Source of the DNA: Sulfoacidibacillus thermotolerans
Lineage (GTDB): Bacteria > Bacillota > Bacilli > Alicyclobacillales > SLC66
Assembly: GCF_003144315.1 (NCBI RefSeq)
Contig: NZ_MPDK01000002.1
Span: forward strand, 1-64,000
Direction: 5' to 3'
Length of the DNA: 64,000 bases
Position numbers and translations under genes: made by a program. Under the pieces are notes generated by a model. It had not been told where the DNA came from. It saw nothing but the letters and a program-made list of their open reading frames with translations, and did not search any database. Positions 5,123 through 7,098 of the stretch are shown one piece after another; position 1 is the stretch's first letter; each line of letters opens with the position of its first letter.

Positions 5123-5782
5123 ATGAGTAAACAATTGTGGTTATTTGATATGGATGGGACGTTATTTGAGACGGAGCGTGTGGCAATTCCTGCATTTCAC
5201 GAGGTGTTTGTTAAACTGAGAAGCGAAGGATTGGAAATTCCGGAAAAGATCACAGATAAGCAAATCACGGGTGTGTTTGGGTATACCCATGAGCGGATAT
5301 GGGCTGAGTTATTTGGACGTTCACTGAATCAACAGGAACAGGCACTGGCTGATGAGTTGTTATTAAAAGCTGAGTTGGAGTTGATTGCTAAAGGGCAGGG
5401 AGTTCTTTATCCGGAAGTGAAAGAAACGCTTTGGCAACTACGGGAACTTGGTGCATCGTTGGCGGTAGCGAGTAACGGAATGCCAGATTATATTGCGGCA
5501 ATCGTGGATTATTTTGAGCTTCGGGATTTCTTTGTAGGGCTCTATACAGCGGGTGGCTATCAAGTGAACTCATAGGTAGATTTAGTGCGCATCGCTTGCA
5601 AGGATATTGCTCATGAGCAGGGCTTTATGGTGGGGGACCGCTTAACTGATGTAGAGGCCGGTCGGCAAAATGGATTATATGTGATCGGATGTGCTTTTGG
5701 TTTTGCGCAAGCAGAGGAATTTGCAGGGGCGGATCGCATAGTAAAAAAGTTTTCGGAGATTCTAACCATGTCGGGCATGTGA
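5123..5782 (+). pseudogene. HAD-superfamily hydrolase gene with in-frame amber stop
   Basis: Phosphatase-like haloacid dehalogenase protein. ATG 5123 follows a strong Shine-Dalgarno GGAGGTG at 5111. Motif I (DMDGT, Asp9 and Asp11) is at the N-terminus, a motif II-like SNG lies near residue 120, and a motif IV GDRLTD lies in the second half. Codon 151 (5573-5575) is TAG, yet the same reading frame continues without further stops to TGA 5780-5782 and keeps family-like sequence. A full protein would be 219 residues. The stop falls where the family often has the motif III lysine, and AAG to TAG is a one-base change. A HAD gene is not usual between rrn and ctsR. The truncated 150-residue product would lack motif IV and is probably inactive. 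Specific substrate is unknown. Confidence 0.8.
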
Positions 5783-5889: not shown

Positions 5890-5918
5890 TTTACAATGGG
5901 CATTTGGTTGAATATAAT
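5890..5918 (+). promoter_or_regulatory. ctsR operon sigma-A promoter
   Basis: TTTACA (5890-5895), 17-bp spacer, TATAAT (5913-5918). The predicted start near 5925 lies just before the CtsR operator. Confidence 0.8.
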
Positions 5919-5928
5919 TAAGCCGTAA

Positions 5929-5945
5929 GGTCAAATAAAGTCAAA
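5929..5945 (+). promoter_or_regulatory. CtsR operator
   Basis: Direct heptad repeat GGTCAAA-TAA-AGTCAAA. It matches the known CtsR consensus (A/G)GTCAAANAN(A/G)GTCAAA at every fixed position. It sits at about +5 to +21 relative to the predicted transcript start, so bound CtsR would block transcription of its own operon. Confidence 0.93.
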
Positions 5946-5970
5946 GTCAGAGGTGGTGGATCTTGGGAAC

Positions 5971-6447
5971 GTGAGAAGCACAGCGGATCTCATTGAAGCC
6001 TATCTGTCCGACCTGCTTGCGAAGAGTGCAAATGGTGTAATTGAAGTACAGCGGAGTGATTTGGCTGAACTTTTCTCTTGTGTACCTTCGCAGATTAATT
6101 ATGTGATTGCGACTCGGTTTACTCTGGAACGCGGATACATCGTCGAGTCAAAGCGAGGCGGCGGAGGATATATTCGCATTCGGCGCGCAGCGACGGTGGA
6201 TTTAAGCGAGATGAAACAATTGATTCGCGATGTTGGTGATCGCATTGCGCAGAGGGAAGCAGAAGGAATTTTGTGGCGCCTTGAAACGGATGGAGTCTTG
6301 TCGTCAAGAGAAGCATCGATGTTAAGGACGGCCATCTCGCGCGACGTATTAGTCCTTCCACTCCCTGAACGTGATATGTTACGTGCGCGGTTATTAGCAG
6401 CGATGCTGGCAGCCGTATATATGCATCGTGATGGTAAATCAGGGTAA
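5971..6447 (+). CDS. ctsR: Transcriptional repressor CtsR
   Basis: Class III heat-shock repressor that binds the heptad operator upstream and is released on stress, when McsB helps inactivate it. The N-terminal winged helix carries the conserved RGGGGYIRI wing (about residues 54-62), and the C-terminal dimer domain follows. GTG 5971 gives 158 residues and aligns with the usual family start (R-S-T-A-D-L-I). GTG 5953 or 5956 in the same frame would add up to six residues; the AGAGGTG at 5949 is rather far from 5971, so the start is uncertain. First gene of ctsR-mcsA-mcsB-clpC. Confidence 0.93.
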   Translation: MRSTADLIEAYLSDLLAKSANGVIEVQRSDLAELFSCVPSQINYVIATRFTLERGYIVESKRGGGGYIRIRRAATVDLSEMKQLIRDVGDRIAQREAEGILWRLETDGVLSSREASMLRTAISRDVLVLPLPERDMLRARLLAAMLAAVYMHRDGKSG

Positions 6448-6466
6448 GCAGCGCTATTTAAACAGG

Positions 6467-6498
6467 TTATCCACAACTTATTCACACCATGTGTATAA
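6467..6498 (+). promoter_or_regulatory. Cluster of three DnaA-box matches
   Basis: The ctsR-mcsA gap contains TTATCCACA (6467-6475), TTATTCACA (6478-6486) and, on the other strand, TTATACACA (6490-6498). All three match the DnaA-box consensus TTATNCACA. The outer parts can also form a hairpin, CAGGTTAT (6463-6470) with ATAACCTG (6495-6502). DnaA binding is inference; an RNA hairpin inside the operon is the alternative reading. Confidence 0.55.
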
Positions 6499-6579
6499 CC
6501 TGTGGATTGAAGAAGAAATTGTCGACACTTAATCAAACAGTTAGATGAGTTTGTCCTTTAGTAAGGAAGGTGACGAGCC

Positions 6580-7098
6580 ATGCTCTGTGAACAATGTGGA
6601 CAGCGGCCAGCAACTGTACATTATACGGAGATTGTACAGGGGAAGAAAAATGAATACCATTTGTGCGAAGTGTGCGCAAGCCAGAAGGGGCAAGCTGCCT
6701 ACCAAGCATTAGCAGGTCCCTTTTCTGTAAATCAGTTGCTGTCAGGGTTACTGCATTTTGATTCGAGCGTAGCCCCACGGTCAGATGCACCAGCTCCACG
6801 ATGTGAACACTGTGGGCTTACATTTCAGCAATTTGTCAAAATGGGTCAATTCGGATGTGAGCATTGCTACGAAACATTTTCTGAGCAATTGGGTCCACTT
6901 TTAAAGCGAGTACAAAGTGCTGATCACCATACAGGGAAAATTCCTAAACGAAGAGGCGGAGCGATGACGCTGCGGCGAGAATTAAGCCAATTGCGTAAAG
7001 AACTGCAACTCAGCGTTTTAGAGGAACGATTTGAGGAAGCTGCGCAACTGCGCGATCGCATCCGCAGCTTAGAGCAACAAATTGGCAGTGATGCGTAA
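6580..7098 (+). CDS. mcsA: McsA, zinc-binding activator of McsB
   Basis: 172-residue partner of the arginine kinase McsB. It has paired CxxC zinc motifs: C3/C6 and C29/C32 in the N-terminal part, then CEHC and CEHC pairs near residues 70-95. The last 40 residues form a UVR-type helical hairpin also found in ClpC. ATG 6580 has the Shine-Dalgarno AAGGAAGGTGA. McsA is known to activate McsB and thereby to help remove CtsR from DNA. Confidence 0.93.
   Translation: MLCEQCGQRPATVHYTEIVQGKKNEYHLCEVCASQKGQAAYQALAGPFSVNQLLSGLLHFDSSVAPRSDAPAPRCEHCGLTFQQFVKMGQFGCEHCYETFSEQLGPLLKRVQSADHHTGKIPKRRGGAMTLRRELSQLRKELQLSVLEERFEEAAQLRDRIRSLEQQIGSDA

Follow-up and report, generated by a model that had tools for sequence, protein, structure and literature searches.

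Organization of the ctsR-mcsA region

The window, as the whole analyzed stretch of 64,000 nucleotides of Sulfoacidibacillus thermotolerans DNA is called here, carries the genes ctsR-mcsA-mcsB-clpC-radA-disA, named from their translations, in the usual order and preceded by an rRNA operon. A promoter-like site and a CtsR operator precede ctsR (Table 1). The 132-bp gap between the stop codon of ctsR, which ends at 6447, and the start of mcsA at 6580 contains three exact matches to the DnaA-box pattern TTATNCACA and one degenerate match within 43 bp, a grouping of several boxes like that of DnaA clusters outside oriC. An earlier note on this DNA had claimed three boxes, two direct and one inverted, within 32 bp between the two genes, and these are present at 6467-6498 without a single mismatch; a fourth, degenerate box in the same 11-bp register had been overlooked. 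The starts of boxes 1 to 4 are spaced by 11, 12 and 11 bp, leaving gaps of 2, 3 and 2 bp, and their order is forward, forward, reverse, reverse. Boxes 1 and 2 on one side, and boxes 3 and 4 on the other, form two tandem pairs that face each other across 3 bp.

Table 1. Features around the array (window positions) and places in the genome with closely spaced exact boxes (contig and position).
Feature	Position	Strand	Remarks
Promoter-like site	5890-5918		TTTACA-17-TATAAT, upstream of ctsR
CtsR operator	5929-5945	+	GGTCAAATAAAGTCAAA, in front of ctsR
ctsR	5953-6447	+	array adjoins its 3' end; 56 of the 59 genomes in the order have homologues
Inverted repeat, possible RNA hairpin	6462-6503	+	boxes 1 and 3 with flanks
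DnaA box 1	6467-6475	+	TTATCCACA, 0 mismatches to TTATNCACA; both sisters have TTATCAACA here
DnaA box 2	6478-6486	+	TTATTCACA, 0 mismatches; TTGTTAACA or ATGTTAACA in the sisters
DnaA box 3	6490-6498	-	TTATACACA, 0 mismatches; faces boxes 1 and 2; TTATCAACA in both sisters
DnaA box 4	6501-6509	-	TGTGGATTG (= CAATCCACA), degenerate, 2 mismatches; TTGTCCACA and CTATCCACA in the sisters, 1 mismatch each
mcsA	6580-7098	+	downstream of the array
Close exact-box pairs	C54		dnaA and rpmH-dnaA gap, oriC
Close exact-box pairs	C61:9054-9088		just behind tsaD/gcp
Close exact-box pairs	C48:6467-6498		array in the ctsR-mcsA gap

Several other identities were considered for the array and rejected. A repeat element was discarded, as the 141-bp region is single-copy in the genome; the CtsR operator sits upstream of ctsR and not at the array; and the operators of Rex, Fnr/CRP and NrdR, parS and CIRCE, compared by eye only, gave no fit. 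No promoter kept across species overlaps the array, the one candidate being a weak TTGATA-16-TAAAGT in a single sister, and no intrinsic terminator (a G+C-rich stem followed by a T run) was found there. The ctsR-mcsA gap had no match in Rfam, and a literature search for DnaA boxes linked to ctsR returned no relevant paper. Between the 5S rRNA gene and ctsR, a gene for a HAD-type hydrolase carries an in-frame TAG at 5573-5575, where the open frame of the sister species has a lysine codon; the gene may have become a pseudogene recently, or the sequence may contain an error.

Closely spaced DnaA boxes in the genome

The genome (2.87 Mb in 135 contigs) was found to contain 138 exact matches to TTATNCACA, versus 60 for the reversed pattern. 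The search covered exact boxes separated from each other by at most 28 bp, in all three relative orientations, with the reversed pattern as control. Such pairs occur at only three places genome-wide, namely oriC, the region behind tsaD and the ctsR-mcsA gap, and the control gave none in this genome. Under random scatter of the boxes, about 8e-5 triples within 32 bp are expected. The scan for rarity that the earlier note had proposed as a check was thus favorable to its claim.

Conservation of the array within the genus

The family to which the window belongs is represented mostly by genomes assembled from metagenomes, and the ctsR locus was recovered in 16 of its 18 genomes. The 32-bp arrangement was found in three of the 59 genomes of the order; these are exactly the three genomes of the genus, and in each the arrangement lies between ctsR and mcsA. 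Its distance from the stop codon of ctsR is 15 bp in both sister species and 19 bp in the window. The array reads TTATCAACA-cct-TGTTAACA-gcc-TGTTGATAA-gt-TGTGGACAA in one sister (G016) and TTATCAACA-gga-TGTTAACA-agg-TGTTGATAA-ac-TGTGGATAG in the other (G017). The four-box geometry is kept in all three species, with inter-box gaps of 2, 3 and 2 bp throughout, in keeping with the 2-3 bp spacing preferred by E. coli DnaA (PMC11317965), whereas exact consensus boxes are restricted to the species of the window: boxes 1, 2 and 3 of the sisters deviate by 1, 2-3 and 1 mismatches, respectively, and none is an exact TTATNCACA. The core TGTGGA of box 4 is unchanged across the three species. In the alignment of the gap, from which the ribosome-site end was excluded, 27 of 43 columns of the array are identical in all three species, versus 14 of 66 in the rest, and third codon positions of ctsR are 52-57% identical in pairwise comparisons.

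Outside the genus, the gap between ctsR and mcsA measures 15-161 bp in the remaining 13 family genomes and holds no exact box either there or in further members of the order, and TTATNCACA was absent from the first 150 bp behind ctsR in all 80 Bacillales-type loci inspected (Paenibacillus, Bacillus and others). The search among relatives that had been suggested earlier therefore found the geometry at the gap in every genome of the genus, and no boxes at the gap in other genera. In the 80 loci, mostly from Paenibacillus, 25 exact boxes were counted in 132 kb upstream of ctsR (control, 6) versus 3 in 240 kb downstream. These upstream boxes were noted at L039:201-472, where five exact boxes lie between the 5S rRNA gene and a GNAT-type gene, at L014:500-615, and at L029, L046 and L053; they perhaps represent an independent origin-side cluster.

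Sister boxes and the oriC and tsaD clusters

The degenerate boxes of the sisters were compared with those in use at oriC. In nine oriC (dnaA-rpmH) regions of the family, totaling 3.7 kb, three one-mismatch variants of the box were enriched over 300 shuffles, none of which reached the observed counts: C6A (TTATNAACA; 5 seen versus 0.6 expected), A3G (8 versus 0.34) and T1C (6 versus 0.18). Boxes 1 and 3 of the sisters are C6A variants, and their boxes 4 are A3G and T1C variants. With a matrix trained on oriC sites, the four-box arrangement scored 52.5 in the window, 44.9 in one sister and 40.2 in the other, and no unrelated position on either strand of about 0.74 Mb of DNA exceeded 24.0; the training sites had at most one mismatch and included C6A, which makes these scores a check of consistency and not a proof in their own right. 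All three species share the same recognition-helix stretch in DnaA, and boxes beside tsaD in the sisters retain C at position 6, indicating that the weaker letters belong to the ctsR site and not to the DnaA of these species.

Upstream of dnaA, several genera of the family share at oriC a module of boxes with the layout F-11-R-12-R, whose middle box is TTATCCACA, TTATCAACA or TTATAAACA, the latter two in other genera. Among 17 family genomes that have an ortholog of tsaD, at least 12 carry a cluster beside this gene, which begins 9-32 bp behind the tsaD stop codon where seen; its instances include L081:4055-4110 (C61:9054 onward in the genome of the window) and L101-L117. One of the eight strongest DnaA regions of B. 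subtilis is located downstream of both gcp and ydiF (PMC4447404). The tsaD-side cluster corresponds in position to this proven B. subtilis site, which suggests that it is old and conserved; the family therefore appears to use DnaA clusters outside oriC. One of the sisters (G017) has, in addition, an exact box pair with a one-mismatch box near the start of contig C39 (L131:95-154), adjoining the 3' end of a gene for an ArsR-like regulator; the genome of the window has no close-spaced equivalent.

A putative DnaA-binding site

We consider it likely that the array behind ctsR is a DnaA-box cluster outside oriC, made of two facing double boxes, specific to the genus and located at a new place, and DnaA probably binds it in the species of the window. 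The earlier proposal of a DnaA cluster is favored by the rarity of such groups, the geometry shared with the sisters, the letters in use at oriC and the 2-bp spacing; it is weakened by the sisters, in which exact boxes are lacking and the stem is kept. The array is probably a real landing site for DnaA that would help to time replication, tune the stress operon, or both. In vivo, E. coli DnaA is found mostly on paired boxes with 2 or 3 bp between them, and one box of a pair may match at only 7 of 9 positions (PMC11317965). On the array, each pair would be occupied by a DnaA dimer, and contacts among the four subunits would be possible.

The genome of the window is a draft with ctsR and oriC on different contigs, and the distance between the ctsR operon and dnaA was taken from eight other genomes of the order with both genes on one contig, in which it spans 0.24-0.43 Mb in simple coordinates. 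Judged by these genomes, an origin-side reservoir would be the plainest role: the array would be copied soon after initiation, take up DnaA and help to delay re-initiation, and this is the most likely of the roles considered. A titrating role of this kind has been proposed for the oriC-proximal clusters of B. subtilis, as conveyed by papers citing Okumura 2012 and Ishikawa 2007. One observation may count against binding: in B. subtilis rplB, DnaA bound inside a transcribed gene in vitro and not in vivo (PMC4447404), and the ctsR array likewise lies in a transcribed stretch.

The location inside the operon also makes a roadblock into mcsA possible, with bound DnaA slowing RNA polymerase before mcsA-mcsB-clpC. 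That DnaA mainly controls transcription here, so that expression of the protein-repair and protease genes would depend on the amount of DnaA and the state of replication, is another version of the DnaA reading and not its opposite, and we regard it as a possibility, though a doubtful one. According to a 1988 paper, a DnaA/DnaA-box complex reportedly blocks RNA polymerase at E. coli asnC, a precedent for such an effect. In addition, DnaA controls several B. subtilis genes (PMC4447404). However, no conserved promoter or terminator was found at the array, and every other genus that has this operon lacks the array. A bolder form strikes us as unlikely: the facing double boxes would throttle the passage from ctsR to mcsA-mcsB-clpC and thereby couple the replication initiator to the stress operon of CtsR, with protein quality control tracking the state of replication. 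In this form the central 14 bp could flip between the arms without loss, since the middle box is nearly alike on both strands.

Hairpin and other explanations

The conserved element at the gap could be the palindrome rather than the boxes, since boxes 1-3 of the sisters are inexact while their stem is perfect over at least 9 bp. In the window, 6462-6475 can pair with 6490-6503 in a stem of 13 pairs with one internal C.U mismatch and a 14-nt loop (-14.4 kcal/mol, z -3.1); the RNA hairpin mentioned in the earlier note is therefore predicted, but is longer than the 8 bp stated there. Stems were also predicted in the sisters (-18.1 kcal/mol, z -4.7, and -12.0 kcal/mol, z -1.9), so that a hairpin in the ctsR-mcsA transcript, serving in processing, stability or attenuation and resembling DnaA boxes as a by-product, has a candidate in all three species, as good or better in one sister than in the window. 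Among the stem changes, which come from three species only, position 6 is altered on both arms (an A/T pair to a C/G pair), another position is broken in the window, and the outer pairs are not kept. Retention of the stem with loss of the boxes had been named in advance as evidence against DnaA; both sisters do combine a perfect stem of at least 9 bp with no exact box, yet they keep degenerate boxes and the geometry.

Against the hairpin, any two sites facing each other produce a stem. Stem length varies among the three species (13 pairs plus a mismatch, 14 pairs including G-U, and 9 pairs), no U tract or terminator follows, and the fold of the whole gap is no better than that of shuffled sequences (z -0.43). 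Several features favor DnaA. The longest invariant run is found in box 4, nearly all of which is excluded from the stem, and the change at position 6 is common to boxes 1-3, even though box 2 sits in the loop and takes no part in the pairing. Boxes 2 and 4 both retain box-like letters in the 11-bp register. The two arms in the window differ solely at position 5, the N of TTATNCACA, where any letter suits DnaA but a stem has a mismatch, and the outer pairs of the stem are not conserved. We therefore give the hairpin little chance of being the primary function. The loop itself (L086, L087) showed a peculiarity: the 14-bp loop of G017 matches the reverse complement of that of G016 at 13 of 14 positions, versus 8 of 14 in direct orientation, with colinear flanks, and the loop of the window shares the orientation of G016 (9 versus 6 of 14). 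This is suggestive only of a loop flipped between perfect inverted arms in one lineage, the signal resting on six letters, as the other eight are palindromic.

The symmetric TTATCAACA-N3-TGTTAACA-N3-TGTTGATAA shared by the sisters might instead be the operator of another regulator reading a palindrome of the TTATCAACA/TGTTAACA type, the exact boxes of the window being coincidental drift. This is improbable: a whole-genome search for TTATNMACA pairs found the palindrome only at the ctsR gap in each of the three genomes, a single place per genome that implies no regulon, and nearly all remaining matches belonged to oriC, to the tsaD side or to mixed DnaA boxes; moreover, other genera of the family have TTATCAACA or TTATAAACA as middle box of their oriC module. 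Single boxes are common enough to invite the idea of a chance cluster without function, but this is barely credible given the expected number of triples and the recurrence of the array, with its location and register unchanged, in the two sister species despite the divergence of ctsR third positions.

Relation to known DnaA sites

In B. subtilis, oriC-proximal clusters lie downstream of gcp/ydiF and upstream of ywlC, and at ywcI/vpr, yqeG/sda, yydA and trmE (PMC4447404). The ctsR array resembles them in its closely spaced boxes outside oriC and, like the gcp cluster, adjoins the 3' end of a gene, but it corresponds to none of the B. subtilis sites and lies inside the ctsR-mcsA-mcsB-clpC operon. 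It has four boxes, versus 4-12 sites in the eight strongest B. subtilis regions, and is a putative binding site. In each of its halves, two tandem boxes are separated by 2 bp, like the double boxes of E. coli (PMC11317965); the two pairs, however, face each other inside an operon, and binding, which was observed by ChIP in E. coli, is predicted here. The spacing steps are those of the family oriC module, which shares TTATCAACA or TTATAAACA as middle box in some genera, but the layout is F-F-R-R instead of F-11-R-12-R, and no dnaA gene is nearby. E. coli datA is a site outside oriC that takes up DnaA and also promotes hydrolysis of the ATP bound to it. In its proposed role the ctsR array would likewise take up DnaA; the promotion of ATP hydrolysis is a feature of datA.

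Only a few model bacteria have well-known DnaA clusters outside oriC, and the ctsR array would add a genus-specific one at a new place. Together with the conserved tsaD/gcp cluster, apparently shared with B. subtilis, it suggests that some of these sites are young and others very old. The array also offers a testable, possible link between the control of replication and a protein-stress operon.
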